64,000 nt of DNA from positions 1-64,000 of IMG/VR virus record IMGVR_UViG_3300008113_004357. One strand, written 5' to 3'. The stretch's first letter is position 1; each line of letters starts with the position of its first letter. The position numbers and the translations under genes are program-made. Origin of the DNA: a virus. Positions 15,918-40,965 of this stretch are shown in pieces. The notes under the pieces were generated by a model that searched no databases, was not told where the DNA came from, and was given only the letters and a program-made list of their open reading frames with translations.

Positions 15918-16594
15918 AAGTTAAGTTAGTTTCTTATAGCCAACCTACAGAAGAATTTCGTCAACAAAACATAGACGATGCACTAGATCTAGTAGCTTAC
16001 TGCGCTCGTGTAAGTAACCCTGCTAATCAGTTCAATACAGAAACTAGCGAAAAGCTAATCAAGTATTTGATCAAGCATCAACATTGGAGTCCTCTCGAGA
16101 TGGTTAGTGCTTGTATAGAGATCACTACTACTAGAGATATTGCAAGACAAATCCTACGCCATCGTAGCTTTAGCTTTCAAGAGTTTAGTCAACGCTATGC
16201 TGATCCAACCGCAGAACTAGATGAAGCTTTTGTACTGCGTGAAGCACGATTCCAAGATACAAAGAATCGTCAAAATAGTGTAGAATTTGACATGAACGAC
16301 GAGCAACAAAAACTTCTTGCCTATGAATGGGAACGTGCTCAGAAGCGTGTACTATTTTCAGTTAAACAAGAGTATTCTTGGGCTATTAAAAACGGTATTG
16401 CCAAAGAACAAGCTCGTGCTGTTCTACCAGAAGGCCTTACTGTTAGTCGTATGTATATGAACGGTACTATTCGTAGTTGGATTCATTACATTGAACTTCG
16501 TAGTGCCAATGGAACACAAAAAGAGCATATGGATATTGCTCGTGCCTGTGGTCAAGTTATTGCAGAAGTATTTCCGCTGTCTAAATCATTGTAA
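15914..16594 (+). CDS. thyX: FAD-dependent thymidylate synthase
   Basis: 226 residues. Methylates dUMP to dTMP using methylenetetrahydrofolate, FAD and NADPH. The ThyX signature R-H-R-x7-S-x-R appears as RHRSFSFQEFSQRY (about 82-95). The C-terminal EQARAVLPEGLTVSRMYMNG and SWIHYIELRS match the substrate-binding region. Folate supply may connect to FolE upstream. The 3' end overlaps the 3' end of the convergent gene by 43 bases, so this marks the boundary between the rightward and leftward blocks. Confidence 0.95.
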   Translation: MKVKLVSYSQPTEEFRQQNIDDALDLVAYCARVSNPANQFNTETSEKLIKYLIKHQHWSPLEMVSACIEITTTRDIARQILRHRSFSFQEFSQRYADPTAELDEAFVLREARFQDTKNRQNSVEFDMNDEQQKLLAYEWERAQKRVLFSVKQEYSWAIKNGIAKEQARAVLPEGLTVSRMYMNGTIRSWIHYIELRSANGTQKEHMDIARACGQVIAEVFPLSKSL

Positions 16595-17484
16595 TGGAGA
16601 ACATTATCTGATTTCCTTGTTATATTGAAATCAAATGTTTTAAACCACTTACTTTGAATAGCTGTTAACGGTTCATCATCTATAGGGAGCTCATGCTTAA
16701 TGAGATTCCCTATTTTTTTGGCCAGTGCTAGTGGGTCTTCATTTTTAACTTTATCATAAAAGAAAGTATTGAGATAATCAAAGTCTCGAACATTAATAAA
16801 ATCCCAATCAGTAAAATGTGTCATGTAACAACCCTGACGAGCTCCTAGTATACTCCAAATGCCGTTTGATACATCTGCGCCTACCATTGACCAAATTCCT
16901 AATCGTTGGTAGTTACCTGGCCATACATCTTTTAATTGATTAACTCGTTGACCCTGTTCAAGTGACATCTTGACGCCTTCACGAAAGCCAGCTCTCCATG
17001 CTTGTAGTGGACTGCCGTTATTATGTATTTGACTAAAGGCTTTGTCTAAAGGCAAATATTCTAAATCCCAGCAAAAGTCTATTTGGCTTTTTACATTGTC
17101 ATTAGGAGCAGCTTCATGTGTTTGCATGTTAAGGACAACGTGCTTCGGCCAGCATTTAATGCCGCCATTGCCGTACATAAGTCCGTTGATAATATTATAA
17201 CTAGGCCAACTTACTACACAATTATCAAAATTAACATCTTCAGGTACTTCAATTACTTGATTAAGAAACTTTCCTGTAAGTACATTGTCACCGTCAATGG
17301 TGACAAATCTGTTTGTTTCAGATAAGTTTGCGGCAGCTTTATGAGCAGCATCACTGCCTTTAACACCGTGAACACGTTTTGCCCAAGGTATCTTTGAACA
17401 AAGATCTGCATAGTTACGATCAGCATCTGGCTCATCGTAACTGATATAGATTACATCATATTCACTTACTGTTATTTTTTTCAT
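16552..17484 (-). CDS. Glycosyltransferase-like protein of the VHGVKGSDAAH family
   Basis: 310 residues. DVIYISYDEPDADRNYADL at the N-terminus, then AKRVHGVKGSDAAHKAAA and RFVTIDGDNVLTG with a D-x-D-N motif, indicates a GT-A-like nucleotide-sugar binding fold. The second half contains a conserved MYGNGGIKCWPK and QAWRAGFREGVKMSLEQGQ. It is a close paralogue of the gene at 37501 and of the C-terminal domain of the giant repeat protein immediately upstream, with which it overlaps by 23 bases. Probably transfers a sugar; donor and acceptor are unknown. Last gene of the leftward run; its stop overlaps thyX tail to tail. Confidence 0.78.
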   Translation of the reverse strand: MKKITVSEYDVIYISYDEPDADRNYADLCSKIPWAKRVHGVKGSDAAHKAAANLSETNRFVTIDGDNVLTGKFLNQVIEVPEDVNFDNCVVSWPSYNIINGLMYGNGGIKCWPKHVVLNMQTHEAAPNDNVKSQIDFCWDLEYLPLDKAFSQIHNNGSPLQAWRAGFREGVKMSLEQGQRVNQLKDVWPGNYQRLGIWSMVGADVSNGIWSILGARQGCYMTHFTDWDFINVRDFDYLNTFFYDKVKNEDPLALAKKIGNLIKHELPIDDEPLTAIQSKWFKTFDFNITRKSDNVLHYNDLDSGNTSAIT

Positions 17485-20400
17485 TTAAGAATTGCTCGTA
17501 TAACCAATCAAAGTCGTTGATCTTAAATAAGTTGTCAGGATTTTCTGTGGCAAACTTACGTCCGGCGAGTGCGCCTTTTATGGCAAATTCACCGTAGGGT
17601 TTATCTGCTCCTTGTGTACACCACACATTTAGACGTTCTTCTGTTTCACTATCTACTTGACGATCAATAGTTTTACCTGCTAGTTTAGCACATTCACGGA
17701 ACGCTGACTTCCATGTTGAAAATTCATCAGTGTTAAAGGAAGTAACGTTACTGACAACTTGTACTGGTTTAAATTTATCGCTGATGCTAGTTGTCATATC
17801 AGGACGAGTTACATCCATACTCAATGTAAGTTGACGAGGTAACAGTTTAACACCACCATAACCGTAGACTAGATTATTAACAGGGTTTTGACTGCGCCAT
17901 ACATGAACTGTATCTCTTTCCCATACAGGTATTTCATAATCAAACTTGAAGTCATCAACTACAACTGCGTCACCATCAACTACCCAGAAGTTATCTGTAT
18001 CTGCCTGTTCGGCTGCTTTGATGTGAGCTTGATGAATGCCTTTAACTCCGTGTACACGTTTGACCCTTGGATACAGCGTTTTAACTCTGTCAAAGTTTTC
18101 ATCAGCATTACTTTCGTTATAACTAATAAACACAATGTCATATGGTTTAACTTTACTAGCTGTAATATTCCATTCTTTACGCTCAACTAGATAACGGAAA
18201 GTAATTTCCTTTTCACTTACAGGGGCATGTTTACTCATCAGGTTAATACCATTATAGTTTTCTTCGCCTCTAAATAAGTGTTTAAAACTGTGATTCATAT
18301 TTCTATCATAGGTATTATGATGACTGAAATAAGTGTCAAATGTAAATGTATCTAATACTTGAACTTCTTTTGGTACTACCCAGAACATGTCTGTAGTAGA
18401 CTCTTCAAGAGCAACTAGATAATCTCTATAAGTGCTTACTGTAAACTTATCAAATTGTTTTGGATTACTTGCTATTGTTTCAATTTCTTTTTTCTCTATA
18501 AAGAATCTTGTTTTAAATTCTCTTTCAGAGATTTGTTCTTCTTTTGAAAATAAACAAATGCCGTCCCAATGTTCACCATTCTTAAAAATATGTGTAACAT
18601 GTTGATTGTAACGAGGAACATAATAATCAAAGTTAAAATCTTCAACAACTTCTACATCTGGCCAGACGCACCAGAACATGTTAGACTCAGATAGTTTACA
18701 AGCTTGTTCGTAGTCCTTGTATGTTGAAATATTAAATTTATCAAACATTTTAGGCGTGCTAGCAACTTCGTCCCATTCCTTACGATCTGAAATGTGTCTA
18801 AATTTAAATTCTTTTTCAGAAATTAATTTTTTCTTGCTGGCAAGAATGACACCGTCATATGTGTCTCCGTTGAGGAACATATGATTTTCTTCTCTTTCGT
18901 AGCTGTTGTGGTAGCTGAAGTAAACATCAAACTTAAATTCATCAGATACAATTACGTCACTAGGAACTATCCAGAATAGATCAGTATCTGATTTTTCAAC
19001 TGCATCCATGTATTCATTGTAGCTGTCAATGTAAAATATATCGTATTTCTTTGGATAACTTGCGACTAATTCAACTATTATTTCTTTATCAGCAAAGAAT
19101 CTATATCTAAATTCTTTTTCAGAAACAAGTACTTCGGTTGAAAATAAACAAATACCGTCATAATGTTTGCTATTCTTAAACACATGAGTTAAGTGTTGAT
19201 TATAACGAGGCACATAGTAATCAAAGTCAAAATCTTCAACAACTTCTACATCATGCCATACACACCAGAACATCTTTGATGTTGAATTTTTTACAGCATT
19301 AAGATAATCGTCATAGGTTTTTATATTAAAGAATCTACTAAATTCTTTTGGTCTACTTGCAAGAACTTCCCACTCTTTTCTGTCGCTTAAAAATCTATAT
19401 TTGAATTCTTTTTCGCTTATGGATTTAAACTTACTGGCAAGTATAATTCCGTCATATGTATCTCCGTTGAGGAACATATGATTTTCTTCTCGTTCGTAGC
19501 TGTTGTGATAACTGAAATAAAGATCAAACTTAAATTCTTCAGCAGTAATAACATCGCTAGGAACTATCCAGAATAGATCAGTATTTGAGTTCTCAACTGC
19601 ATCAATGTATTCATTGTAGCTGTCAATGTAAAATATATCGTATTTCTTTGGATAACTTGCTAGGTAGTCAATTTCTTTCTTTTCTGTAAAGAATCTGTAC
19701 TTGAATTCTTTTTCGCTTACCTGTGAAGTTTTGCTGAATAAACAAATACCATCAAAATGATCTCCGTTCTTAAAAACGTGTGTAATGTGTTGATTGTATC
19801 GAGGTACATAGTAATCAAAGTCAAAATCTTCTACAACGTCTACATCATGCCATATGCACCAAAACATATTGCTTTTAGATTCTTTGCAAGCATTAAGATA
19901 CTGTTCATACGTTTTAATATAAAATTTATCAAACTCTTGTGGTATACTTACAAGTGTATCCCATTCTTTTCTTTCATTTAAGAATCTATATCTAAATTCT
20001 TTTTCACTTATAGGTCTAAACTTACTGGCAAGAATAACACCGTCATATGTATCTCCGTTAAGGAACATATGATTTTCTTGTCGACTATAGGTGTCATGGT
20101 GGCTAAAATAAAGATCAAACTTGTAGTCATTAACTACTGTAACGTCACTAGGTATTAACCAGAGCAAGTCTGTAATAGAAGATTGAACAGCATTTAAATA
20201 TTCATCGTATGTGTTAACATAAAATATATCATAATTTTTAGGATAGCTGATAGTATAGTCAACTTCTTTTTTGTCAGTAAAGAATCTGTACTTAAATTCT
20301 TTTTCACTTACTTTAGTGTGCTTACTAAACAGACAAACACCGTCATAGTACTCGCCGTTTTTAAAAATATGAGTAATATGTTGATTATAACGAGGAACAT

Positions 20401-22072
20401 AATATTCAAAGTCAAAATCTTCTACAACATCAATGTCGGGCCATATTGCCCAGAACATATCAGTTGTTGACTGTTCACAGGCTGTGAGATATTCTTCAAA
20501 AGAACTTATATTAAAAATTTCAAACTTAACCGGCGTACTTACTAATAACTCTTCTTCTTTTTTCTCAATGACAAATTTATTATCAAATTCCTTTTTAGAA
20601 ATTTCTAAAGATTTTGGAGTTAATAATACTCCGTCATAGAAATCACCGTTAAGAAAAGCATGATGTACAGATCTATCAAAGACATTGTCATGAGTATAAT
20701 AAACATCAAATTTAAAATCATCTTTGAGATTAATACCGGAAGGTATAATATAAAACAGTTCTGTTCTTGATTTTGATTTAGCTTCTAAATATTGCTCGTA
20801 AGAATCAACATAAAATTTATCGTACTGGCAGGGAACACTGGCTAAAAGATCCCATTCTTTACGCTCGACAATATATCTATGTTCTATTTCTTTGGCGCTA
20901 ACTGGCTTGTACTTACTTAATAAGAAGATACCGTTATATAATTTGTCATTATTAACTAGGTGTACAAATGCGTGATTTTCTTGTCGTTCGTAGGCATTAT
21001 GATATGTAATGTATAGATCAAATTTAAAATCATCGACTACTTTTAAGTTAGGACTAGTCATCCAAAACAAATCTGTAGTCGACTGCTTTACTGCTTCTAA
21101 ATATTGATCATACGTTTCTATTTCAAAAATATCGTATGATTTTGGAACGCTGGCAACATAATCAACTTCTTTTTTGTCAGTGAAGAATCTATATTTAAAT
21201 TCTTTTTCAGTTACTTTGTTGTGTTTACTAAACAGACAAAGTCCATCATAATATTCTCCATTTTTAAATACATGGGTAACATTCTGATTATAACGAGGTG
21301 CATAGTAATCAAAAGTAAAATCTTCTAAAAGTTCTATGTCATACCATATTGCCCAGAACATATTTGTTGTTGAATTTTCGCAGGCAGCAAGATAATCGTC
21401 GTAGGTTTTTATATTAAACTTTTCAAACTCTTTAGGACGACTTGCAAGAATTTCCCATTCTTTTTTGTCGCTTAAGAATCTATATCTAAATTCTTTTTCA
21501 CTTATAGGTTTAAATTTTGATGCTAAAATGATTCCGTCATATGTATCTCCGTTAAGGAACATATGATTTTCTTGTCTCTCATAACTATTATGATGACTAA
21601 AATACAGATCAAATTTAAATTCTTCAACGACTGTAACATCGCTAGGAACTATCCAAAACAAATCAGTGGTTGCATTTTCCAGTGCGTTGATATATTCTTC
21701 ATAGGTATCTATGTAAAAAATATCGTACTGTTTAGGAATACTTGCTACTAAATCAATTTCTTTTTTATCAGTAAAGAATCTATATTTGATTTCTTTATCG
21801 CTAATATACTTGTGGCGGGGGACCAAAGACAATCCGTCAAAGTATTCGTTATTTTTAAAAATATGCACATAGTCTTCGTCCCATTTAGGGATTGAATAAG
21901 AAGAAAAATCAAAATCGTCTTTTAGTTCTATGTCGTCCCACACTGTCCAGAACATAGAAGTAAGAGCTTTTGATTTAGCTTCGTCGAAGTTTTTGGCTTT
22001 TTTAGCAAACGGATATTTTGATTTAATGACTTTCCAATTTGGATTATTTCCAATAACAAAAATATCGTACAT
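17462..22072 (-). CDS. 1,536-residue protein of 13 glycosyltransferase-derived repeats plus a full C-terminal domain
   Basis: The protein is almost entirely repeats. Residues 1-1310 hold 13 modules of 97-115 residues; 1311-1536 form a complete domain homologous to the genes at 16552 and 37501 (YDIVFISYNESNADENF, RVKRVHGVKG, FWVVDGDAVVVDDFKFD). Modules alternate between two types. Type I reads FW-x-x-W-x-D ... YYVPRYNQHITHVFKNG ... DGICLFSK; type II reads LFWIVPSDV ... YFSHHNSYER ... NHMFLNGDTYDG ... ILASK. Each aligns to residues around the DGD of the C-terminal domain, with DGD changed to PSD or WxD, so the modules probably keep the fold but not catalysis. No signal peptide or membrane segment. 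Possible roles: a multivalent glycan-binding array, a scaffold or a processive polymerase. I know of no described protein of this design. Confidence 0.85.
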   Translation of the reverse strand: MYDIFVIGNNPNWKVIKSKYPFAKKAKNFDEAKSKALTSMFWTVWDDIELKDDFDFSSYSIPKWDEDYVHIFKNNEYFDGLSLVPRHKYISDKEIKYRFFTDKKEIDLVASIPKQYDIFYIDTYEEYINALENATTDLFWIVPSDVTVVEEFKFDLYFSHHNSYERQENHMFLNGDTYDGIILASKFKPISEKEFRYRFLSDKKEWEILASRPKEFEKFNIKTYDDYLAACENSTTNMFWAIWYDIELLEDFTFDYYAPRYNQNVTHVFKNGEYYDGLCLFSKHNKVTEKEFKYRFFTDKKEVDYVASVPKSYDIFEIETYDQYLEAVKQSTTDLFWMTSPNLKVVDDFKFDLYITYHNAYERQENHAFVHLVNNDKLYNGIFLLSKYKPVSAKEIEHRYIVERKEWDLLASVPCQYDKFYVDSYEQYLEAKSKSRTELFYIIPSGINLKDDFKFDVYYTHDNVFDRSVHHAFLNGDFYDGVLLTPKSLEISKKEFDNKFVIEKKEEELLVSTPVKFEIFNISSFEEYLTACEQSTTDMFWAIWPDIDVVEDFDFEYYVPRYNQHITHIFKNGEYYDGVCLFSKHTKVSEKEFKYRFFTDKKEVDYTISYPKNYDIFYVNTYDEYLNAVQSSITDLLWLIPSDVTVVNDYKFDLYFSHHDTYSRQENHMFLNGDTYDGVILASKFRPISEKEFRYRFLNERKEWDTLVSIPQEFDKFYIKTYEQYLNACKESKSNMFWCIWHDVDVVEDFDFDYYVPRYNQHITHVFKNGDHFDGICLFSKTSQVSEKEFKYRFFTEKKEIDYLASYPKKYDIFYIDSYNEYIDAVENSNTDLFWIVPSDVITAEEFKFDLYFSYHNSYEREENHMFLNGDTYDGIILASKFKSISEKEFKYRFLSDRKEWEVLASRPKEFSRFFNIKTYDDYLNAVKNSTSKMFWCVWHDVEVVEDFDFDYYVPRYNQHLTHVFKNSKHYDGICLFSTEVLVSEKEFRYRFFADKEIIVELVASYPKKYDIFYIDSYNEYMDAVEKSDTDLFWIVPSDVIVSDEFKFDVYFSYHNSYEREENHMFLNGDTYDGVILASKKKLISEKEFKFRHISDRKEWDEVASTPKMFDKFNISTYKDYEQACKLSESNMFWCVWPDVEVVEDFNFDYYVPRYNQHVTHIFKNGEHWDGICLFSKEEQISEREFKTRFFIEKKEIETIASNPKQFDKFTVSTYRDYLVALEESTTDMFWVVPKEVQVLDTFTFDTYFSHHNTYDRNMNHSFKHLFRGEENYNGINLMSKHAPVSEKEITFRYLVERKEWNITASKVKPYDIVFISYNESNADENFDRVKTLYPRVKRVHGVKGIHQAHIKAAEQADTDNFWVVDGDAVVVDDFKFDYEIPVWERDTVHVWRSQNPVNNLVYGYGGVKLLPRQLTLSMDVTRPDMTTSISDKFKPVQVVSNVTSFNTDEFSTWKSAFRECAKLAGKTIDRQVDSETEERLNVWCTQGADKPYGEFAIKGALAGRKFATENPDNLFKINDFDWLYEQFLNEKNNSK
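18143..22072 (-). repeat. Tandem array of 13 coding modules, about 597-nt super-period
   Basis: Module residue limits are 1-115 (I), 116-215 (II), 216-312 (I), 313-416 (II), 417-516 (II), 517-613 (I), 614-713 (II), 714-810 (I), 811-910 (II), 911-1009 (I), 1010-1109 (II), 1110-1206 (I), 1207-1310 (II). A type I-type II pair spans about 197-199 residues. At DNA level a 56-base block at 19008-19063 recurs exactly at 19605-19660 and a 28-base block at 18960 recurs at 19557, both 597 bases apart, showing recent duplication or conversion of whole pairs. Confidence 0.9.
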
Positions 22073-22078
22073 ATCATT

Positions 22079-22810
22079 CTACCATGTAATAAACTTATAT
22101 AGCTCTTTTGCGTAGAGCTCGTGAGGTTTTTCTCCGTGATGCCAATATTTTGCTAAAGAATTCTGATGACCTTCTCGCTGGTACTTGAGATAAAAAGAGT
22201 TATTTGAATTATCAAAATCCATATATCGAGAACCGTCTATTAACTTTAAGTAAAAATCAGTCCATCGATCTCGTTTGACAAAGTGCATGGTATTACACAT
22301 GACATACTGAATACCCATTGACTTAAAATAAGACTGTAGTTGATGTACAAGATTTAAACTTTGAATTTCTAAATATGACTGATTTGATGCCATGAACTTT
22401 TGATAAAATGGTATTAATCTTTTTTCCCAATCTGAATTTCCATTAAAGCCAGGATTTAATCTATAGAATACATTATTAGTATTTCCAAACCAAGAATTAG
22501 TTTCAGATATAATATATTTTGTTCCTAATTCTGACGGTATCTCCATACGCACACTTTCGGTCCATGCTACGCAGACAAATAGGTCCATACTTTCAGGATC
22601 ATATTCTCTATGCATCCATTCTAATATTGATCTAGCTATAGTAGGGTTAGCCGATCCTGGAGAAGAAATATTAATAGGTCTATACCCTAGCATCTCAGCT
22701 AATATGTTTCCAAATGATTTGCTTCTATTAAAATCAGAATCTAATTGCCCATCTATCTCTGATCCCGATGCGTGGCTGCATCCAGAGATTAACATTACTT
22801 TCTCTTTCAT
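22079..22810 (-). CDS. SGNH/GDSL-like hydrolase
   Basis: 243 residues. LISGCSHASGSE near the N-terminus (Ser12 in G-C-S-H) is the nucleophile block. NISSPGSANPTIARSILEW gives the Gly/Asn blocks, and KYWHHGEKPHELYAKEL near the C-terminus supplies the catalytic His. SGNH enzymes include O-acetylesterases and acyltransferases that act on polysaccharides, so it could trim or acylate the glycan made by neighbouring glycosyltransferases. There is no signal peptide, so action would be cytoplasmic unless released at lysis. Overlaps the upstream gene by four bases. Confidence 0.75.
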   Translation of the reverse strand: MKEKVMLISGCSHASGSEIDGQLDSDFNRSKSFGNILAEMLGYRPINISSPGSANPTIARSILEWMHREYDPESMDLFVCVAWTESVRMEIPSELGTKYIISETNSWFGNTNNVFYRLNPGFNGNSDWEKRLIPFYQKFMASNQSYLEIQSLNLVHQLQSYFKSMGIQYVMCNTMHFVKRDRWTDFYLKLIDGSRYMDFDNSNNSFYLKYQREGHQNSLAKYWHHGEKPHELYAKELYKFITW

Positions 22811-24063
22811 TTTACTAACCTTTGAACAGTTTTAAAAGTTGTTTTAGACAATAAACATTGATAATTATGATCTAATATTGATTGCATTTGATCGTACATG
22901 TCACGCAGTTCGTTAATAGATTTAGAATTTATATAATTTATAAGATTTAAAATTTTAATAGTTCGTACTTCATGATTAGATTCTTCATCATAACTTTCAT
23001 CCCAGAAATCGCTAAATGTTTTAAATCCCATCCTTTTAGCATATTCTAAAGTGTACGGTGGTGCTACTAATATAAATGGTTTTTTATATCTTATAGCTTG
23101 ATATAATTTTTCACTGTAATTTCCACAATGTTGCGCGAAACGTGTTTCATTAATTACATCACAAAAACTATCATTATAAAAATCTCCCAGTGGATTTAAT
23201 TTAAAATTATTAATAGCAGGGGTTTCATAATTATCATAGCTTTCTGTTATAGGATAATAAGATGGATTTTCATTGTTTATATCAACAGCATTAGTTGCTT
23301 TAATATCTAAACAAACAGGAGAATGATAATTTAAAATTTCAAATCCAGACATTAGTTGTTCGTATAATTCTTTATTTGTTTTTTTCCAATTGTGTATTGG
23401 AAAAAATAAATCATGTGCAAATGCTTGACCATTGCAATTAAAATACCAACTGTAGTTAGAAGAAACTGTTGATAAAAATGCTGTAATTAGATGACGGTGT
23501 TTTGTATATCTCCAATTTACACAAATAAACTTTTTAGTAAATTTGTTGTTAGGAAAACTTTCAAATAACGAGTAATTTTTTAAAAACAAATCATTTGTTA
23601 CTAGTTTCATTATTTTAGTGTAATGTGGATGATAGTAGGCTACCTTATAATCGCAAGTATTCACTATTACTCTTTTTAATCCATTACGTATAACATACTC
23701 TTTAATGCTGTCTAATTCGTCAGCTCTTATTTCGTTTAGATTTGTTTCAAAAGGAAACTCGCTGTAGAATCCTCTATTATGATGATAATTCTCCCTACGA
23801 GAACAAATAGGCTCATATAAGAAAAAATATAAACCCAATCTATTCATAGTTTCCACATCACTGGCACTATGATTAATATTTTTTAATCCTGTCAATTCCC
23901 CGTTACCCATATAGACAAAAACAGGAATATGAGGAGCTAGGCCGGAAGAATTTCTAACTTGGGTCATGAATACATTTGCATCTGTTTCAGGGCGATTTTT
24001 CATGCCAGGAATACTAAACCAATGTAACTGAGTCAATTCGTGATCTGGCGGATTAGAGCTCAT
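22807..24063 (-). CDS. Glycosyltransferase-like protein, SEK/KPF paralogue family (copy 1)
   Basis: 418 residues. The C-terminal part has NYSEKLYQAIRYKKPFILVA, GFKTFSDFWDESYDEESNHE and LDHNYQCLLSKTTF. The middle has FICVNWRYTKHRHLITAFLS. The same layout (x-N-x-R-x-x-H-R-x-x-L then S-E-K-x-F/L ... P-F-I-L ... G-x-K-T-F) occurs in the genes at 28401 and 31542. The E-x-x-x-x-x-S-E-K ... P region resembles the donor-binding end of GT-B/exostosin-like transferases. Sugar and acceptor unknown. Overlaps the oxygenase gene by 11 bases. Confidence 0.68.
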   Translation of the reverse strand: MSSNPPDHELTQLHWFSIPGMKNRPETDANVFMTQVRNSSGLAPHIPVFVYMGNGELTGLKNINHSASDVETMNRLGLYFFLYEPICSRRENYHHNRGFYSEFPFETNLNEIRADELDSIKEYVIRNGLKRVIVNTCDYKVAYYHPHYTKIMKLVTNDLFLKNYSLFESFPNNKFTKKFICVNWRYTKHRHLITAFLSTVSSNYSWYFNCNGQAFAHDLFFPIHNWKKTNKELYEQLMSGFEILNYHSPVCLDIKATNAVDINNENPSYYPITESYDNYETPAINNFKLNPLGDFYNDSFCDVINETRFAQHCGNYSEKLYQAIRYKKPFILVAPPYTLEYAKRMGFKTFSDFWDESYDEESNHEVRTIKILNLINYINSKSINELRDMYDQMQSILDHNYQCLLSKTTFKTVQRLVK

Positions 24064-24559
24064 TAAGTTCTCCTGTAATTTGAAGTGTGTACCTATCTGC
24101 TATTCCAATATTACTAGCTGCATGGGGAACATCGTACTGCCAGAAAAAATAATCTCCTGCTTTCCAATTTACATAACCAACATCTGCTATTTCTAAATAA
24201 TGTCCAGGTTTCCAATCTTCTAACATGATTAACACTCTACACACATTACTTGGAACTGCGTTAAATAATTTAGTGTAAGTTCTAAAATGATCTGTGTGCA
24301 TGGGCATTATTTCTAAAGTACTCATTTTATAAAAATTATAGGTTTGATTTTTTAGACCGAACATATTATTAAATTTTTGTACCCAGTCTGGTAAAAGATT
24401 TTTACTGTCGTACATTGATCCTGTAAAACTTTTTACATAGTCGTAACCCTTTTCTTTCCATTGAGAAACTTCTTGTTCAGTAACTGGTTGTTTAATATAT
24501 GAAAAAGTTCTATAACTGTGATCCCAAAAAGGATTAACATGACCGGTATAAAAATTCAT
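24053..24559 (-). CDS. 2-oxoglutarate/Fe(II)-dependent oxygenase-like protein
   Basis: 168 residues. H88-x-D90 (PMHTDHF), H146 (DVPHAASN) and R156 (ADRYTLQ) form the H-x-D...H...R pattern of the double-stranded beta-helix oxygenases, with strands RVLIMLEDWKPGHYLEI and AGDYFFW between. Would hydroxylate an amino acid, nucleoside or sugar-linked amine using 2-oxoglutarate and O2. Placed between an amidinotransferase and a glycosyltransferase-like gene with 4- and 11-base overlaps, so it probably acts in the same pathway. Distinguished from a simple cupin by the HxD spacing and the late Arg. Confidence 0.78.
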   Translation of the reverse strand: MNFYTGHVNPFWDHSYRTFSYIKQPVTEQEVSQWKEKGYDYVKSFTGSMYDSKNLLPDWVQKFNNMFGLKNQTYNFYKMSTLEIMPMHTDHFRTYTKLFNAVPSNVCRVLIMLEDWKPGHYLEIADVGYVNWKAGDYFFWQYDVPHAASNIGIADRYTLQITGELNEL

Positions 24560-28349: not shown

Positions 28350-28400
28350 GTTAATTCTCCTATCAAATATTTAACAGTTTTAATTTTAGCCGTTTTTTTT

Positions 28401-30721: not shown

Positions 30722-30739
30722 TTATATTCCTCAAAAAAC

Positions 30740-30747
30740 TATTTATT
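30740..30747 (-). promoter_or_regulatory. Late-promoter-like box AATAAATA
   Basis: On the minus strand AATAAATA matches TATAAATA at seven of eight positions, 18 bases before the ATG of the dehydrogenase gene, in one of the few gaps of the leftward run. Could provide late transcription of the dehydrogenase and genes downstream of it. Confidence 0.35.
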
Positions 30748-30750
30748 AAG

Positions 30751-33647: not shown

Positions 33648-34891
33648 CTATAGACCTCTTTAAGTTCTGGAATAACATCTAAAATACTTTCGTTGCGAGC
33701 GGCGTCTAACTCGTCATTAAATTTAATAAACTCTTGTATACCACCTTTGTTAGGATCTCCGCTTTTTAAATTTTGACTTATCATTTTAAACCCGTTGCTA
33801 ATCTCAGGATTATACGAATACTTGTGAATGTATTCTCGATATAATCTACCTAACTTTTCTTTTGAGAATTCAGGGAGAATCATAATATTGGAATACCAAG
33901 GACTGGTAGCAAGATTAAATCTAGGCACAGTATTCTTGTCAATTAGTTCGTTGTCGATCAAGTAGTCAAAGAATTTAGGAAATTGAAATACGTTCCAAAT
34001 ACTAATAGTAGGAGTTATTTGGAACTGTGCGTGGGGTACTAGTTCTTTTAGTTCTCTTAAGTTTTTCTCTATCCTATCCCAATCAGTACCTTTACGAATT
34101 AATTCGCTATGTGGTCCCATGCCGTCTAGGCTAGCCCAAATAATTAAGTTAGGAAATTTTTTCCAATAATCAATTAAGTCTTTATCTTTAAACTTAAGGC
34201 TGCTAAAGTTTGTTGTATAACTTAACTCAATAGTTTCATTTATACCATTTTCAATCCAGTAGTCTAAACACTCATAATGTTCTGGAGTGATAATAATTTC
34301 GCCGCCTGCAAAATATACTTCAACTACATCTTTAAGGTACGGTTTTAATTTAGTCATTAACACTTGATCATCGTTGTTACTAACTACCATTTTAGTCATG
34401 TTAAAATGTTTGTTTAAAACTTCAACACCTTTTTGGTCAATAAATTCCTGTGCCCATTGACTAGAACAGCTTGGTCCGCAACTACGACATTTCATATTGC
34501 AGAGATTACTAAAACGAATGTCCATGTACTTTAACTTAAATTCGTTTAAACTTCCATCGTCATTAGTGTCCTCAACTGTGTCAACAAAATCAAGTCCTCT
34601 GCGTCTGTTATGACTTTGTCTCATAGTCCACGTGCCTAATTTTTCGAGATCGTAGCATCGTTGGCATGCTTCAACTGGTTCGTCATTGAGCATGTTTAAT
34701 CGCATTTTCTTATACTCTTCACTGTTCATCATTTCAAGTATAGATTCATTTGATTTGATTTCACCTACTGGTTTATTACTGTCAGCTACACAGCATGGCA
34801 ACACCCTGCGATCTGGCCAGGCATGAAAATGAATCCAAGGAAGGATACAAAAGTGTTTTCCATTTTCAACAAGCTCTGTTACGTTTTTCAT
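33632..34891 (-). CDS. N-twitch radical SAM enzyme (copy 1)
   Basis: 419 residues. The N-terminal auxiliary domain has HFCILPWIHFHAWPDRRVLP then CC (33-34) and C76-x2-C79. The radical SAM site is C131-x3-C135-x2-C138 (SNLCNMKCRSCGP), and YFAGGEIIITPEHYE is the SAM strand. The auxiliary cluster sits before, not after, the radical SAM core, an architecture known as N-terminal twitch. Its substrates are not established. LIIWASLDGMGPHSELIRKG follows. Three paralogues in tandem suggest successive reactions on related substrates. Two bases separate it from the next copy upstream. Confidence 0.85.
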   Translation of the reverse strand: MKNVTELVENGKHFCILPWIHFHAWPDRRVLPCCVADSNKPVGEIKSNESILEMMNSEEYKKMRLNMLNDEPVEACQRCYDLEKLGTWTMRQSHNRRRGLDFVDTVEDTNDDGSLNEFKLKYMDIRFSNLCNMKCRSCGPSCSSQWAQEFIDQKGVEVLNKHFNMTKMVVSNNDDQVLMTKLKPYLKDVVEVYFAGGEIIITPEHYECLDYWIENGINETIELSYTTNFSSLKFKDKDLIDYWKKFPNLIIWASLDGMGPHSELIRKGTDWDRIEKNLRELKELVPHAQFQITPTISIWNVFQFPKFFDYLIDNELIDKNTVPRFNLATSPWYSNIMILPEFSKEKLGRLYREYIHKYSYNPEISNGFKMISQNLKSGDPNKGGIQEFIKFNDELDAARNESILDVIPELKEVYRWAKN

Positions 34892-34893
34892 TG

Positions 34894-36132
34894 TTACTCC
34901 GTTAGATTCATAAGTCTATTTAATTCTGGGAAAGTTTTAATGAAACTTTCACCTCTAATTTTATCAGTTGACAAGACATGCATAAAAAATGTCTTTTTAT
35001 TTTCATCCCAAGTGTTGCTTTCATCTGCAAATTTTATTGCATCTGTTACAAGATTGTTTAACAGCACCCATTCAGGACCGTTAGAAGATATAAATTTTTC
35101 TGCATTTTCTTTTGCAGCTGCCTTTAAAATTTTTGGCATACTTTTAGCAGAATAATAACTAGGATGAACGGCAAGATATAAACTGTGATACCAGTCGTCC
35201 AATCTTACAATATTTTTTTCCTTAAGATAGTTATAAAAATCTCCAATAGTCAGATAATTGAAAATACTGAATACTGTGTTTATTTGAAAATGTACATAGT
35301 CTAATTGTCTAAAAGTAAGCAGGTTACTTTCAACTTTACCCCAATCTGTACCGTGACGTAACCACTCTGCTCGTTCGCCGTAATGGTCAATTGAACAGCT
35401 TAATTCAACACGTTTAAAATGTTTCCACAAGTCTAGTATGTCATGATTTTTATATTTAATATTGCTGGCATTAGTGTTATAACGTAAAGTTACATCAGTT
35501 CTACCCTTACGAATCATTTCTTCAAGGATAGTGTAGTGCTCATCTGTGATTAAAGGTTCGCCTCCAGCAAAGTAAGCAAGATCGATGTGTTCAATGTGTG
35601 TTAGTACTTCATTAAGCAAATCGCCTTTACCGTCATCGGCATGAATAACTATAGGATGATTAGGATCAAAATTTGCTTTTTGTTCGGCGGCCCATTGACT
35701 GCTAAATTCAGCACCACAGGTTCTACATTTAAAATTACAAATATTACTAAAACGTATGTCGTAATATTTCATTTTAAAATCTGGCATTGTGCCATCTACT
35801 TGTGTTTGTGGCACTAGTTCGTCAAAATCTTTTCCCCAATGTTCTTTGCTATAATTTCTAAAACTGTGAGGACCTGCTTCTTCATGCTTATAACAAAACG
35901 TACAAATTTCACTTTTAGTTTCGTTTAACATGTTAAGACGAATAGTTTTCATCTTGTCGTTATTAAACGCATCTTTTAATGTTGTTTGCTTTGTATTACC
36001 AAATGGAGTAGTATAGTTGTTACTACAGCAAGGGTATATGTCTCCTTTTGGTGTTACATTTAAATGCATCCATGGAAACATGCAAAATACTTTGCTTTCA
36101 TTTAATAAAAAATCTTTATCTATATTGTTCAT
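34894..36132 (-). CDS. N-twitch radical SAM enzyme (copy 2)
   Basis: 412 residues. FCMFPWMHLNVTPKGDIYP and C35-C36 with C77-x2-C80 form the N-terminal twitch cluster; C132-x3-C136-x2-C139 (SNICNFKCRTCG) is the radical SAM site; YFAGGEPLITDEHYTIL has an intact GGEP. VELSCSIDHYGERAEWLRHG follows. The closest paralogue appears to be copy 1. Copies 2 and 3 keep GGEP, whereas copy 1 has GGEI. Overlaps copy 3 by 17 bases. Confidence 0.86.
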   Translation of the reverse strand: MNNIDKDFLLNESKVFCMFPWMHLNVTPKGDIYPCCSNNYTTPFGNTKQTTLKDAFNNDKMKTIRLNMLNETKSEICTFCYKHEEAGPHSFRNYSKEHWGKDFDELVPQTQVDGTMPDFKMKYYDIRFSNICNFKCRTCGAEFSSQWAAEQKANFDPNHPIVIHADDGKGDLLNEVLTHIEHIDLAYFAGGEPLITDEHYTILEEMIRKGRTDVTLRYNTNASNIKYKNHDILDLWKHFKRVELSCSIDHYGERAEWLRHGTDWGKVESNLLTFRQLDYVHFQINTVFSIFNYLTIGDFYNYLKEKNIVRLDDWYHSLYLAVHPSYYSAKSMPKILKAAAKENAEKFISSNGPEWVLLNNLVTDAIKFADESNTWDENKKTFFMHVLSTDKIRGESFIKTFPELNRLMNLTE

Positions 36133-37504
36133 TGGCTATTTCGCAAAGTTTGTAAAAGCTTTCCATTTCTGGAAATGCTTGTAAAAAGTTAGTATCTCGT
36201 CTTTTATCCATGGCGCTAAACCAATTGAAAAAATCTTTTCGACCTTCAACTAATTTTTCCATAGTATAATTTGTTGACTCCATATAATCGACTACACGTT
36301 TAAATTTTTCATATTCAACGCTGGTAAACTTATCGCTGGCATTATCGTCAACATTCTCTTCCATAAATTTAAGATGCTCGTGCATATAGGGCATAAACTC
36401 TTGTTTTGGTAGTATGTTCATATCATATTGAATAGGATCTCTGAGATAGGGTGTGTCAAATCTTACGCGATGTTCTTTACGATCCTCGTACCATCCATAT
36501 TGTTTACGCCATTCAAGAATTTTTTCTAATAAAGATTTAAATGTTGTTACACTTAAAATATTAAATGTAATCATAAAAGTTATCGGACTAGTAGTATTTG
36601 TAAGATATGTGTGAAAATTTTGTTCCCATAACGAAAGATCTAAACCTGTACGAATGTACTCAGCACGAGGACCCCATGTGTCCATACTAGTAAACAATTT
36701 AAAATTTTTAATTTTATCGTTAACTTTTAAATTTTCAACTTCGGTAGATAATCGATCTACTAAACTGCTCTTGACACCAAGATTACTGTTAACATTAAGT
36801 TCAAGCCAGGGCATTGGTTCTTTGTTAATTTTATCTAATAATCTCCACGTGCTTACGTGCATCAATGGCTCTCCGCCAGTAACACGCATAATATTCAATG
36901 TCTTACGTAACTGAGGCCACCAACGCCAAAACGCATCTACATATGGATTATCTTCTTCTCGACTATACAGCTTCATCCAGTCAATGTCGCAACGATGATT
37001 TTTAACTGTGGTCACTGGACCGTGTTCTTTAATCTCATTAAAGAATCTTGAACTGTATTTGGGATGGCAGTATCCGCATTTGAAATTACATTCATTGCCA
37101 AAATTGATTTCAATATACTCAGGATTAATGTTTTGGTCCCAAGAGCCTTTGGCTGTTTGCTCGTAGCGTTCTTCCGTAAAAATACTGGCATTGCGAATAT
37201 GTCTATCGCTAATATAATCGGGACCCATTGCTTCGATGTTCCAGCAGTATTGACAACCTTCGGGCTTTTTGCCTTCTAGCATCATTTTACGTTCTTGCTT
37301 CTTATGTTCAGTGTTGTGCAACGCACTGGGATTGTCAAATACTTCAATTAAAGGAATCTTATGAGGAGCAGGATGATAACAACTATGTGTTTCTCCTGTT
37401 TGTAGATACATGGTCACGTGATGCCATTTGGCTAGACAAAATGTAGAGCTTACTTCATTCTCTACTTTAATCTTGATTGTTTTGATCTTTTCTTGTTCAT
37501 TCAT
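36116..37504 (-). CDS. N-twitch radical SAM enzyme (copy 3)
   Basis: 462 residues, the longest copy. FCLAKWHHVTMYLQTGETHS with C42 and C84-x2-C87 is the twitch part; C139-x3-C143-x2-C146 (GNECNFKCGYCHPK) is the radical SAM site; RVTGGEPLMHVSTWRLL is the SAM motif. LFTSMDTWGPRAEYIRTG matches the TSxDxxGxRxEYxRxG region of the family. More divergent than copies 1 and 2. Overlaps the GT-like gene upstream by four bases. Confidence 0.87.
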   Translation of the reverse strand: MNEQEKIKTIKIKVENEVSSTFCLAKWHHVTMYLQTGETHSCYHPAPHKIPLIEVFDNPSALHNTEHKKQERKMMLEGKKPEGCQYCWNIEAMGPDYISDRHIRNASIFTEERYEQTAKGSWDQNINPEYIEINFGNECNFKCGYCHPKYSSRFFNEIKEHGPVTTVKNHRCDIDWMKLYSREEDNPYVDAFWRWWPQLRKTLNIMRVTGGEPLMHVSTWRLLDKINKEPMPWLELNVNSNLGVKSSLVDRLSTEVENLKVNDKIKNFKLFTSMDTWGPRAEYIRTGLDLSLWEQNFHTYLTNTTSPITFMITFNILSVTTFKSLLEKILEWRKQYGWYEDRKEHRVRFDTPYLRDPIQYDMNILPKQEFMPYMHEHLKFMEENVDDNASDKFTSVEYEKFKRVVDYMESTNYTMEKLVEGRKDFFNWFSAMDKRRDTNFLQAFPEMESFYKLCEIANEQYR

Positions 37505-38397
37505 TTGAAATAGTTTCTCAGTGTATCGTGCATTTTTTTATAGTAAATAGATCCATCAGCATCAAGGTCAGCAATTTCAATTCCGTGTGCTTGCTTGATT
37601 TCGTTACCGTAAAATTTAATTTTTTCTTCTGCATGATCAATAGTTTTATCTGACCATTGTTCTTTCCAATACTCAGTTAAGTACTCAAAATCTCTTACGT
37701 TAGCGTACTCCCAATTTGTACAATTTGTAAGATAGCAGCCTTCTCTGGCGCCTAGCAGACTGTACAAACCATTATCAACATCACGCCCAACAGAGCACCA
37801 TGTAATTAATCTATAATAGTTTTCCCACCAAATTTGTTTTTTCATATCCGTAACTTTGGCACCTTGGTCTAGGCTCATCTTTACACCTTCACGAAAGCCC
37901 GCTCGCCATGCTTGAAATGGCGTAGCATTAGTAAAGGTAGTGCTATAATTGCCCCCAAACTGATGATACCTATGATCAAAACAAAACTCTACTAAACCTT
38001 TATGATCTGCAGGGTCTGAATTTTCATGGGTTTTCATTTCGTTGACAAATTTACGTGTCCACATTTTAAGGCCACCATTGCCATACATAAGATGATTGAC
38101 ATGTACACGACCAGCCCAGCTAAAAACATAGCTATCATCAAAACCTAGTTCGTCTAAATCAACAACTACTTGAAAAAATTTACTGTCAACAATATTGTCA
38201 GCATCAACAGTGACAAAATATTCTGTTTCACTTTTTGCAGCACAAGCTTTATGTGCGGCGTCGCTGCCTTTGACTCCGTGTACACGTTTAGCCCATGGCA
38301 CTTTCTTTAATAGGTCAGCATAATTTTTTTCAGCATTAGGTTCATCATAACTTAAAAATACAATGTCCTGATCAATGACTTTAATTTTATTACTCAT
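37501..38397 (-). CDS. Glycosyltransferase-like protein of the VHGVKGSDAAH family
   Basis: 298 residues. DIVFLSYDEPNAEKNYADLL, AKRVHGVKGSDAAHKACA and YFVTVDADNIVDSKF (D-x-D-N) give a GT-A-like core; LMYGNGGLKMWTRKF and QAWRAGFREGVKMSLDQG are shared with the gene at 16552. It is colinear over its whole length with that gene and with the last domain of the repeat protein, so these three share one ancestor. Likely a sugar transferase; the cofactor site is inferred from the DxD only. Confidence 0.78.
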   Translation of the reverse strand: MSNKIKVIDQDIVFLSYDEPNAEKNYADLLKKVPWAKRVHGVKGSDAAHKACAAKSETEYFVTVDADNIVDSKFFQVVVDLDELGFDDSYVFSWAGRVHVNHLMYGNGGLKMWTRKFVNEMKTHENSDPADHKGLVEFCFDHRYHQFGGNYSTTFTNATPFQAWRAGFREGVKMSLDQGAKVTDMKKQIWWENYYRLITWCSVGRDVDNGLYSLLGAREGCYLTNCTNWEYANVRDFEYLTEYWKEQWSDKTIDHAEEKIKFYGNEIKQAHGIEIADLDADGSIYYKKMHDTLRNYFK

Positions 38398-38965
38398 ATT
38401 TTTCCTTAATTCCGTAATTAGGAAATCTTTTTAATGTTGCTACACTTATTTGTCCGAGATTCTCTTCGTAATTAGTTTCAAAACTGTAATCTATCTTACC
38501 GTCAATAATATTACTAGCGTCAACTGTAAAATATCTGTACAAATAATGTGGGTCGTCTTTTTTACAAATATAAAATGTAATTGGAGGCAATACTTCTAAT
38601 TTTTCTAACGCTTCTTCATCAAAATATACTGTCCATTTATGATCAATTGTGTTGTGCTCAAGTATAACAGTATCATTAACATTGTATGTTAGAGGTAAAA
38701 TTTGAAATAATGGCTTACTGTATTCTACAGTATCATTTTCAGAAATTCTAATACCTTTACTTAAATTATAAAAATATTCTATATTATATTTTCTAAAATC
38801 TTTTTTACCATTAATAAAATCATCTATCAAAAAAAGATCAATTTCAAATACTTTATACTTGTCTTCTTTAACATTACTCAATAAATGTACAGTACCTTCA
38901 TTGTCATAATGAACATAGAAAGAATTATATACCATTCCTGATGTTGAACGTTCTTTTCTACTCAT
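38390..38965 (-). CDS. Hypothetical protein of the leftward module
   Basis: 191 residues, Asp/Tyr-rich and predicted beta-rich (GMVYNSFYVHYDNEGTVHLL, KWTVYFDEEALEKL, ITFYICKKDDPHYLYRYFTV). No recognised motif. Overlaps the flanking genes by four and eight bases, so it is co-translated with two glycosyltransferase-like proteins. Could be a non-catalytic partner. Confidence 0.65.
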   Translation of the reverse strand: MSRKERSTSGMVYNSFYVHYDNEGTVHLLSNVKEDKYKVFEIDLFLIDDFINGKKDFRKYNIEYFYNLSKGIRISENDTVEYSKPLFQILPLTYNVNDTVILEHNTIDHKWTVYFDEEALEKLEVLPPITFYICKKDDPHYLYRYFTVDASNIIDGKIDYSFETNYEENLGQISVATLKRFPNYGIKEKYE

Positions 38966-39792
38966 AGATTTTCCAATTTTTTAATTATATCGTCAGTAAG
39001 AAATTCGTTTTCTACATAATGAAATAAGCCGTGTTGCTGAAAATTGCCAACTTTTAAATTTCCACTTTCACTAAAATAAGAAGAAATAGCCGAAGTCCAT
39101 TTACTTGGAATATTTTTCCAACCCTGTATTGCCGGTTTCATATGTGTAAAACTTGGCACTAGTGTATCTTTAGTAGTAAATTCTTCCTCGCATCCCATAA
39201 ATTTAAGGGCCAATGCTACACTGACATCCATACTACAAAATGTTTGAGGAGAATTTTTAAGATGTAGTGGATAAAATTTTCTCCACTGGTCAATAATAAT
39301 TTCTACCCATTTAAAAAATTCATAAGTTCTATCAACCTTTTTAAAATAAAAGGCACCACTATATGTGTTGACTAGATTATTAGCCGTGAATGTTTTTCTA
39401 TAGTAATCATTGTTAATTACGTTTCCTCGATAGTCTAAAACATTCGAAGTAAAAAATAAATCTTTTTGTTCTAAATATTTCCACCAATGATCGTTACTGT
39501 TTAATAACAACATATCAGTATCGTAGACAATGTTTTCAATAAACGGACTTACATGTATTACTTTCCATCTATTTTCAATTTTCCAAGATGACCCTTCTGC
39601 ATCATCACCCCACGGAATTGGTAGTATATGATCAAATGCATGTCTATAAGATTCCGGTACTTCGTTATTAGTAATTAAACATGTTTCACGATATAACTTA
39701 TTATTCTTTTTAATGCTTAATGCCAATGCGTAAGCTTGTCTTACATAATCAACATTAGAATTTTGTGCTACAAAAATATGACCATTAGACAT
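38962..39792 (-). CDS. GT8-like glycosyltransferase
   Basis: 276 residues. HIFVAQNSNVDYVRQAYALA is the GT8-type opening, NIVYDTDMLLLNSNDHWW carries the D-x-D (DTD) metal motif, and YSGAFYFKKVDRTYEFFKW is the acceptor-side strand. Would transfer a hexose from a UDP donor with a divalent metal. Paralogous to the next gene upstream, with which it overlaps by eight bases. Confidence 0.75.
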   Translation of the reverse strand: MSNGHIFVAQNSNVDYVRQAYALALSIKKNNKLYRETCLITNNEVPESYRHAFDHILPIPWGDDAEGSSWKIENRWKVIHVSPFIENIVYDTDMLLLNSNDHWWKYLEQKDLFFTSNVLDYRGNVINNDYYRKTFTANNLVNTYSGAFYFKKVDRTYEFFKWVEIIIDQWRKFYPLHLKNSPQTFCSMDVSVALALKFMGCEEEFTTKDTLVPSFTHMKPAIQGWKNIPSKWTSAISSYFSESGNLKVGNFQQHGLFHYVENEFLTDDIIKKLENL

Positions 39793-40621
39793 TGTTAATC
39801 TGCCTTAATAAACTATACTTGTTCATTACATGAACATCCACGGTTGATGTCTTTACTGGGGTAAAATCTGAAGCTTGATCTTGCTTTTGTACTAAAAATT
39901 TCATCACCGATTCTTTAATTTCAAAAAGAATATCAGAATCTCTTATATAAAAAAGTTTACCAGGTAAATGATGTGCAAACGTGCCTAGACTAAATCCATT
40001 AAGCATATGGATTGCAATACTAAATGCGTAATCATTTCTAAAATTAGTACTGTGTATTTGATACACTAACTTATAATAAGTCCAATTTTCTTTAACATGT
40101 TTTACTAACGCAAACAACAATTCAGTATTTTTAGTTTTCTTAAAGAAAAATACCGTAGCCCAGTAAAATGGAATGCCGTGCTCACCGACTGTGGTGAATT
40201 CAGACACATCTCGCCACTGTGCTAGGTCAAATCCTTTTTGGTAAATTAGGAAGTCGTGGGGCTGATCCCAGCAGTAGTTTAATGTTTTTGAGTTTACAAT
40301 ATAATCTGAATCAATTACTAGAGTATTTTCATATGGGGTAAGATCAAAAACACTATGTCGTGTGCTGTTTTTCCAAGGAAGCTTGACGCTTTTACTAGCA
40401 CCGTCATAGAAATATTTTGAATTAGAGTGTTCTTCTTGCTCTAATTCTATAATTTTATCGAATACCGAAGTGTCTAACTTGTCAAAGATAGATTTATCAT
40501 CTGTGATAACTGTTACTGGCACTTCTAGAAATTTTGCTACCTTTTTTGCCGCAAACCAGGCCAGTTGTGCATAATCAATTTCTTGATTATTATAGGCAAA
40601 CAGCACTACTCCGTTAGTCAT
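39785..40621 (-). CDS. GT8-like glycosyltransferase
   Basis: 278 residues. VVLFAYNNQEIDYAQLAWFA, VPVTVITDDKSIFDKL and ENTLVIDSDYIVNSKT (D-x-D) define a GT-A fold like GT8; FYWATVFFFKKTKNTELLF follows. Second gene from the module promoter. Its start overlaps the previous stop by four bases. Confidence 0.73.
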   Translation of the reverse strand: MTNGVVLFAYNNQEIDYAQLAWFAAKKVAKFLEVPVTVITDDKSIFDKLDTSVFDKIIELEQEEHSNSKYFYDGASKSVKLPWKNSTRHSVFDLTPYENTLVIDSDYIVNSKTLNYCWDQPHDFLIYQKGFDLAQWRDVSEFTTVGEHGIPFYWATVFFFKKTKNTELLFALVKHVKENWTYYKLVYQIHSTNFRNDYAFSIAIHMLNGFSLGTFAHHLPGKLFYIRDSDILFEIKESVMKFLVQKQDQASDFTPVKTSTVDVHVMNKYSLLRQINNV

Positions 40622-40965
40622 GCTACAAGAGTCTCCACTGATCTGCTATTCTTAAGTTGTGAATACTTGGTATAATACTCGTTAATAGAACTTTGATAAA
40701 TCACTATCAGTGTGTCTAAAAAGTTTTTAAGATTTTCAATGTTAATAGGAGTATGGTTGTCATCAACTAACACCATATCTTCATCGTAACCTAGATCAAT
40801 TAGTGTTTTAACAAAATTTATAAGGTCACGGGTTACAGTAAATGTTCCACCGTTTTGATAATGGATCAAATTTTGAAGAAATTCTTCTTTGAGTATGTGT
40901 TTTTGGTTTGACAACGTAGTCATATAATTGGCTACGTCAAAGGCTTTTTGGACGATTGGATCCAT
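40618..40965 (-). CDS. Small helical protein, first gene of the leftward module
   Basis: 115 residues, mostly helical (IVQKAFDVANYMTTLSNQKH, LINFVKTLIDLGYDEDM) with a Ser/Tyr-rich end. No recognised domain. It is the first gene after the consensus sigma70 promoter at 41.0 kb and has an AGGAG ribosome-binding site. Could be a regulator or a structural helper. Confidence 0.65.
   Translation of the reverse strand: MDPIVQKAFDVANYMTTLSNQKHILKEEFLQNLIHYQNGGTFTVTRDLINFVKTLIDLGYDEDMVLVDDNHTPINIENLKNFLDTLIVIYQSSINEYYTKYSQLKNSRSVETLVA

Follow-up and report, generated by a model that had tools for sequence, protein, structure and literature searches.

What does a phage make with five radical S-adenosylmethionine (SAM) proteins, an amidinotransferase, an aminotransferase and a series of glycosyltransferases (GTs), and on which acceptor is the product placed? 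This question is raised by a block of 21 leftward open reading frames (ORFs) at positions 16552-40965 (minus strand) in the ORF list of the window, that is, the 64.0 kb analysed of the 67.3-kb linear IMG/VR virus record IMGVR_UViG_3300008113_004357. A first-pass annotation had described more than 20 leftward genes overlapping by 4-17 bases; the number stands and most neighbouring ORFs do overlap to that extent, but one overlap measures 23 bases and a few small gaps are present. The annotation had also taken the block for a biosynthetic, glycan-like island, a view borne out by the enzyme set together with several GT folds and by the conservation of the block in many phages. We consider it an evenly balanced proposal that the block is an exchangeable accessory island making a guanidino or amino sugar, which soluble GTs attach, most likely to tail-fibre adhesins and otherwise to the host envelope. 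Gene content, conserved gene order, location, catalytic motifs, the predicted folds of two GT families and a promoter are the observations from which this proposal starts.

The motif CxxxCxxC occurs in five proteins of the block (751, 321, 419, 412 and 462 aa):

36116-37504, minus strand: rSAM462, N-twitch radical SAM protein (NF033640, 312.8 bits; CxxxCxxC)
34894-36132, minus strand: rSAM412, N-twitch radical SAM protein (NF033640, 373.4 bits; twitch region aligns with BtrN)
33632-34891, minus strand: rSAM419, N-twitch radical SAM protein (NF033640, 369.2 bits)
32682-33647, minus strand: rSAM321, radical SAM protein with a C-terminal Cys cluster (PF04055, 33.4 bits, above cut-off)
26094-28349, minus strand: B12-binding radical SAM protein of 751 aa (PF04055 and PF02310, both above cut-off)

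Motif, Pfam and NF033640 (N_Twi_rSAM, curated cut-off 170 bits) agree with the earlier count of five radical SAM proteins, one of them B12-binding and three of the N-twitch type. With 36 bits, rSAM321 lies under the NF033640 cut-off and is a radical SAM protein by Pfam only. The B12-binding protein matches C-methyltransferase-type families below their own cut-offs and reaches no equivalog cut-off. In an alignment of the N-twitch proteins, C17, C35, C77 and C80 are invariant in addition to C132/C136/C139. The sole solved relative of the N-twitch profile is the twitch domain of BtrN, with which the auxiliary cysteines align; BtrN is a radical SAM dehydrogenase in butirosin synthesis. Inspection of 78 bacterial N-twitch loci revealed arrays of N-twitch genes from which the phage GT families were absent except in three contigs, and these three resemble phage DNA in bacterial bins.

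Four further enzymes would supply and modify the sugar:

24556-25530, minus strand: AMID324, StrB1-type amidinotransferase (closest solved relative StrB1, 1BWD, E 2e-61)
25520-26110, minus strand: AT196, mini DegT/StrS aminotransferase (PF01041, 65.8 bits against a cut-off of 19.8)
24053-24559, minus strand: 2-oxoglutarate (2OG)-Fe(II) oxygenase-like protein (PhyH weak, below cut-off)
29528-30721, minus strand: UDP-sugar 6-dehydrogenase (UGDH) with an A10 run at its end (PF00984 and PF03721, above cut-off)

These matches support the previous naming of an amidinotransferase, a StrS-like aminotransferase and a UDP-sugar dehydrogenase. For AMID324, StrB1 leads the runner-up among solved relatives by about 95 bits, AGAT matches with E 6e-31, and the catalytic Cys/His/Asp residues of pentein amidinotransferases are invariant in the motifs FHC, MHxDST and FDAAN. 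AT196 still has the pyridoxal phosphate lysine, the DAA motif and the motifs that mark the large domain in StrS/DegT enzymes. It is half-size (196 aa; phage relatives all 195-238 aa) and falls short of the full-length DegT/StrS enzyme, a fold of about 360 aa with a C-terminal small domain. The assignment of a 2OG oxygenase, despite the weak PhyH match, is backed by the motif HxD...H...R, which is shared with the annotated 2OG oxygenase of cyanophage S-SCSM2R. UGDH also matches phrog_9148 (E 2e-100) and does not reach the cut-off of subfamily TIGR03026; a second UDP-glucose-dehydrogenase-like gene lies far from the block at 4651-5466 (plus strand). A scan based on the amidinotransferase family yielded 51 loci, of which 46 carry the 2OG gene, 42 the aminotransferase, 33 the B12-binding radical SAM gene and 26 UGDH, usually in the run B12-radical SAM, aminotransferase, amidinotransferase, 2OG.

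StrB1-, StrS- and BtrN-like proteins in one block recall aminocyclitol antibiotics, and StrB1 and BtrN are the closest solved relatives of AMID324 and of the N-twitch domain, respectively. A small diffusible aminoglycoside-like or guanidino metabolite produced during infection is nevertheless highly improbable: no cyclitol-forming synthase, kinase or exporter was recognised, the enzymes sit among many phage GTs, and their location is linked to fibres.

Although Pfam detects the GT proteins of the block hardly at all, the following GT-like and hydrolase-like proteins were recognised:

39785-40621, minus strand: GT278, GT8/glycogenin-like GT with DSD (GT276+GT278 profile)
38962-39792, minus strand: GT276, GT8-like GT with DTD (GT276+GT278 profile; conserved order)
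37501-38397, minus strand: GTa298, GT-A-fold GT-like protein (predicted model)
31542-32681, minus strand: GTf379, GT-B-fold GT-like protein (predicted model)
22807-24063, minus strand: GTf418, GT-B-like protein of the GTf379 family (alignment)
28401-29536, minus strand: third GT-B-like protein, linked to UGDH (-1 frame without a stop from the UGDH A-run onward, 379 residues)
17462-22072, minus strand: REP1536, degenerate GT-A-like repeats and a C-terminal GTa domain (domain matches)
16552-17484, minus strand: GTa310, GT-A-like, last gene of the block (46% identity to GTa298)
30751-31548, minus strand: SGNH2, SGNH-hydrolase-like (weak Pfam match to Lipase_GDSL_2, E 0.1; conserved family)
22079-22810, minus strand: SGNH1, SGNH-hydrolase-like (GCSH motif, conserved family; Pfam uninformative)

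Counting the paralogues GTf418, the UGDH-linked GT-B protein, GTa310 and REP1536, the block contains at least seven GT-like proteins, and the earlier mention of GT-like proteins, including GT8-like ones, is sustained by the GT-A and GT-B models and by a weak glycogenin (GT8) match of the GT276+GT278 profile (E ~6e-4). The structure models of GTf379 and GTa298 were built on alignments of relatives. In the GTa298 model (mean predicted local distance difference test score, pLDDT, 90.6) the N-terminal half is GT-A (Z ~10, root-mean-square deviation (rmsd) 3.2 over ~140 residues); its DxD-type motif aligns as DAD in the window and as DGDN in relatives. As to the two SGNH hydrolases that had been named, the motif is in place, but the Pfam matches are weak or uninformative, so that SGNH1 and SGNH2 are best called putative. 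REP1536 consists of about 13 degenerate GT-A-like repeats of ~100 aa without DxD, while its C-terminal domain keeps DGD; 15 domain matches were found in the window protein and 16-18 in its relatives, and divergence is fast (50-71%). For the window proteins GTa298, GT276 and H288 no match was found in the phage collection.

The UGDH-linked GT-B protein had been annotated as a GT of 246 aa, the length obtained from the ATG at 29141, and this was a misreading: a frame of 379 residues is open, lying -1 relative to the end of UGDH. No ATG, GTG or TTG occurs in this frame across 133 conserved codons after the A-run (window 29500-29545). A run of A9-A10 and a conserved -1-frame protein lacking a shared start codon were likewise found in L001, L004, L005 and L032; L035 differs in that the GT-B gene after UGDH has its own ATG. 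UGDH and the GT-B protein are thus probably fused by -1 frameshifting or by transcriptional slippage at the A10 run.

The GTf379 model (pLDDT 93.7) aligns with the beta-glucosyltransferase (BGT) of phage T4 (Z 11.1, rmsd 5.4, 287 residues aligned), which, together with thyX and the FolE- and QueE-like genes nearby on the opposite strand, would be expected if the block served to decorate DNA with sugars, the hypermodification known from T-even phages. Yet T4 BGT is just one of many GT-B enzymes that score equally in this comparison (fucosyltransferase, Z 10.6; GtfC/Gtf3, Z ~10-11), no base hydroxylase/kinase set was recognised in the block, and the block has its place after fibre genes and is missing in some relatives. 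DNA as the target is therefore very unlikely.

Virion genes precede the block. From about 64 kb leftward the genes encode a giant virion protein of 4423 aa (matching phrog_10938), the small structural-type proteins H179 and H176, three tail-fibre-like proteins and H288, followed by the block; block and thyX (ThyX, 15914-16594, plus strand) are convergent. The position between virion genes and thyX given in the first-pass annotation is correct on both sides and can be narrowed to the region behind the tail-fibre genes, the phage being a T4-related jumbo phage. The genes at this junction and the two remaining genes of the block are:

41877-49376, minus strand: TF594, TF1078 and TF812, three tail-fibre-like genes (PHROG tail, tail fibre and virion structural matches)
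41000-41866, minus strand: H288, adhesin-like, directly upstream of the block and outside its coordinates, candidate acceptor
40618-40965, minus strand: H115, hypothetical protein of 115 aa, first gene of the block (25-96% identity, same position in many contigs)
38390-38965, minus strand: H191, fast-evolving hypothetical protein (in a subset of relatives, 25-84% identity)

The GC content of the block (0.30-0.38) is on average below that of its left flank (0.35-0.43). None of the block proteins contains a 19-residue stretch above a Kyte-Doolittle value of 1.45, i.e. no membrane protein was found, and therefore the block offers no candidate for a flippase or a polymerase.

Relatives of the block were sought in IMG/VR, where 56 loci were found. 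Co-occurrence in conserved order, the check that had been proposed earlier, was confirmed: the order H288-H115-GT278-GT276-(H191)-GTa-rSAM462-rSAM412 (one or more)-rSAM419-rSAM321 is shared by about 30 contigs, which fall into at least six groups at 60% identity of GT278. Almost all relatives whose contigs extend to this point have H288 in front of H115, and the genes after rSAM321 vary between contigs. The 3' half through thyX is collinear in five contigs of other records (76-85% DNA identity). Assembly chimerism was rejected because both block junctions recur in independent contigs of other records, and a captured O-antigen locus, the second artefact that had been considered, is not supported given the lack of membrane proteins. 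No close DNA relative of the window was found among named phages. Compared with G003, the window shows two speeds of divergence: radical SAM proteins, GTa and UGDH are 80-89% identical, and GT-B, SGNH, REP, H191, H288 and fibre proteins only 28-58%. Such a pattern would be expected if acceptor-facing enzymes change together with fibres or host surface.

The perfect sigma70 promoter reported previously was found again:

41017-40989, minus strand: sigma70-type promoter TTGACA-N17-TATAAT before H115 (12/12 match)

It is kept at the same spot in L001-L005, has an 11/12 counterpart in L042/L043 and lies at a constant distance from GT278 in most members of the window clade; by inspection, a similar TTGACC-TATAAT is located upstream of H115 in L092. 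Given this conserved promoter in front of it, the block looks like a transcription unit of its own. In L048, L049 and L068 the promoter is replaced by TATAAATA, an element which is rare in the window (2 copies observed, 10.7 expected) and of which one copy lies at 43684-43691 (minus strand) before TF594. L016-L047 carry a strongly conserved TCTAAATACTC-N-TAGGAGT element upstream of H115 that overlaps the ribosome-binding site of this gene. A role of TCTAAATACTC as general late promoter was rejected, as the core TMTAAATACTC was present in a single copy in each of two records, over 200 kb and 139 kb, respectively.

Genes for UGDH and StrS-type enzymes are commonly encountered in loci for surface polysaccharides. 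Together with the sigma70-type promoter they would fit remodelling of the host envelope, in which lipopolysaccharide (LPS), O-antigen or capsule is altered to block superinfection or to aid release; the GTs of a pelagimyophage cluster have been read in this way (PMC7029224). A Wzy-type O-antigen or capsule locus comprises a membrane flippase, a polymerase and a lipid-carrier transferase, and the block contains none of these nor any other membrane protein. This argues against a complete O-antigen route, while peripheral GTs acting on the core would still be compatible with the gene content. Host-envelope remodelling is possible, though distinctly less probable than decoration of fibres.

The same site was then compared in cultured phages. 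The gp23 of relative L059 is 65-67% identical to that of PA5oct-type, Vibrio 2.275.O and Phosso phages, and H176 is closest to Phosso and Atu_ph07; judged by this gp23 and by the flanking genes, the window phage groups with T4-related jumbo phages of the PA5oct/Phosso/Atu_ph07 type. In PA5oct and Paride the giant protein is followed by the H176 homologue, a gp10-like tail pin, a further virion protein and a protein carrying an H288-type domain; right after this last one the run ends, and the block is absent ("empty site"). PA5oct proteins of this run were flagged by electrospray ionisation tandem mass spectrometry (ESI-MS/MS), among them EST35_0123, which is matched by the H288 family member of L092. 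In 121Q no radical SAM or GT gene is annotated beside the H176 homologue.

In Phosso and Atu_ph07 the slot that follows the giant virion protein, the H176 homologue and the fibre gene is filled differently, with a cupin-like gene, several SPASM-type radical SAM genes and a gene for a protein of 306 or 296 aa that ends in C-terminal CHxS repeats (CHTSCHASCHSSRSRR and CHSSCHASCHNSRSRR, respectively); no GTs or amidinotransferase were recognised in this cassette. The loci L065:22641-30384, L066:23460-31109 and L163:7956-8660 encode CHxS-repeat proteins with SPASM-type radical SAM genes and a cupin-like gene as neighbours. In L163 a long CHSSCHSS... tail of about a dozen units is encoded between radical SAM genes. 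The CHxS protein, SPASM radical SAM proteins and cupin are a candidate phage system resembling those for ribosomally synthesised and post-translationally modified peptides (RiPPs), for which no description was found in the open-licence literature. By protein search the Phosso CHxS protein had no relatives in viral contigs; a DNA-pattern search returned real CHxS tails in L163 and Atu_ph07, other matches being unconfirmed as such. Since Phosso-type fibre and H176 were not found in the L163 contig, the link of the CHxS cassette to fibres comes from Phosso and Atu_ph07 only.

The alternative cassette at the same site, and the tail in L163, raise the possibility that the window block, too, directs radical-SAM modification of a virion or small protein, with GT-like proteins adding sugars to the peptide. 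However, no precursor candidate with Cys/His repeats was seen by eye in the block, its N-twitch proteins are of a different family, and amidinotransferase, aminotransferase and UGDH would be unnecessary. Peptide chemistry of this kind is improbable for the window.

Radical-SAM cassettes near fibres are a theme common to the window relatives, Phosso/Atu_ph07 and Campylobacter phage CP220. The block has more precedent than originally claimed, namely in Campylobacter phages (2010, PMC2853527) and pelagimyophage clusters (2020, PMC7029224). CP220 and CPt10 possess an exchangeable module of five radical SAM genes and a putative glycine amidinotransferase (Timms et al. 2010, PMC2853527), for which the accessible text of the paper proposes a metabolic benefit and makes no link to fibres. 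As in the window, the five radical SAM genes and the amidinotransferase form one block; matches to window families were found for CPT_0086 and for some of the radical SAM proteins, and sugar-transferase-like genes are present. In CP220 all these genes lie upstream of the tail-fibre-like CPT_0101/0103, and one CP220 tail-fibre gene shares a domain with TF594/H179. The window block differs by its larger size, adding B12-radical SAM, mini StrS, 2OG, UGDH and GT-B proteins, the N-twitch trio and the repeat protein, and the amidinotransferases are only 24% identical.

The pelagimyophage host recognition cluster is hypervariable and comprises GTs, interpreted there as modifying the host O-chain, a UDP-glucose dehydrogenase, radical-SAM cassettes and tail fibres (after VrlC in most genomes); freshwater pelagimyophages reportedly have neither LPS nor radical SAM genes, and an amidinotransferase/aminotransferase sub-pathway is unmentioned in the accessible part of that account (PMC7029224). 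Like this cluster and that of cyanomyophages, the window block is a variable GT-rich region adjoining tail fibres, but the phage groups with the jumbo phages named above. In S-SCSM2R (PQ898602), a DegT protein of 195 aa, a 2OG protein and an amidinotransferase (61% identical to that of the window) are clustered with GTs in a run aminotransferase-radical SAM-GT-2OG-amidinotransferase. Unlike the window, this 244-kb cultured cyanophage with psbA/psbD lacks N-twitch trio, B12-radical SAM and repeat protein in the run. No description of the block, of its sub-pathway or of the alternative slot contents was found in the open-licence literature; the moraphage paper and the cyanophage literature likewise yielded none of the block. 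New here are the conserved order, the guanidino-sugar sub-pathway, the slot with alternative contents, the degenerate GT-A repeat protein and the probable UGDH-GT-B frameshift fusion.

How might the island work? In T4-related jumbo phages it sits at the downstream end of what would be the tail-fibre operon for host recognition. In the route proposed, UGDH would provide a UDP-hexuronate, and radical SAM proteins of the BtrN-like twitch and B12 types would act on sugar intermediates by oxidation, C-methylation or both. Amination of a keto-sugar by the mini StrS/DegT enzyme could follow, the StrB1-like enzyme would convert the amine to a guanidine, and the 2OG enzyme would contribute a hydroxylation. 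Soluble GT8-, GT-A- and GT-B-type transferases would assemble the sugar on its acceptor, the likeliest being the phage's own fibre or an adhesin such as H288, and decorated fibres might show altered receptor binding or shield the virion. Reactions, their order, sugar and acceptor are all conjectural in this scheme. The target "virion, host envelope or DNA" named by the annotation was too open; fibres are favoured because of the location behind fibre genes, the H288-type PA5oct protein flagged by mass spectrometry and the absence of membrane proteins. Fibre proteins rank first, with chances close to even, the host envelope follows as a less likely candidate, and peptide chemistry is a distant third.

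Several points weigh against the proposed sugar route to fibres. Peptides are frequent substrates of twitch/SPASM radical SAM proteins, and apart from its radical SAM proteins the block has no obvious maker of a keto-sugar. Acceptor, sugar and enzyme activities are predicted. The sigma70-like promoter suggests expression by the host polymerase, possibly early, which also fits modification of the host surface, and TATAAATA stands before H115 only in L048, L049 and L068. Furthermore, a position of the S-SCSM2R cluster beside fibre genes would be conjectural.

More tentatively, the fibre locus of T4-related large phages may offer a general slot in which radical-SAM enzymes for the post-translational modification of receptor-binding proteins are placed. 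It would be filled with guanidino-sugar glycosylation, CHxS-repeat peptide maturation or nothing, and phages would tune host recognition through the chemical remodelling of their fibres. If fibres are decorated, phages would have a new way to vary host recognition, and small, soluble enzymes would be a source of new sugar or peptide chemistry. Phage radical-SAM clusters were noted in 2010 without proven function; conserved order, sub-pathway, empty site and alternative cassette now make the question testable.

No tRNA and no Rfam family was found in the window. The FolE-like and QueE-like genes, located at 5519-6355 and 8028-8900 (both plus strand), are possible 7-deazaguanine pathway genes. 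Finally, the phage block was observed in contigs L068, L092 and L102, binned as Rhodobacteraceae and Rickettsiales genomes; these are probably phage DNA within bacterial bins and give a hint of alphaproteobacterial hosts.

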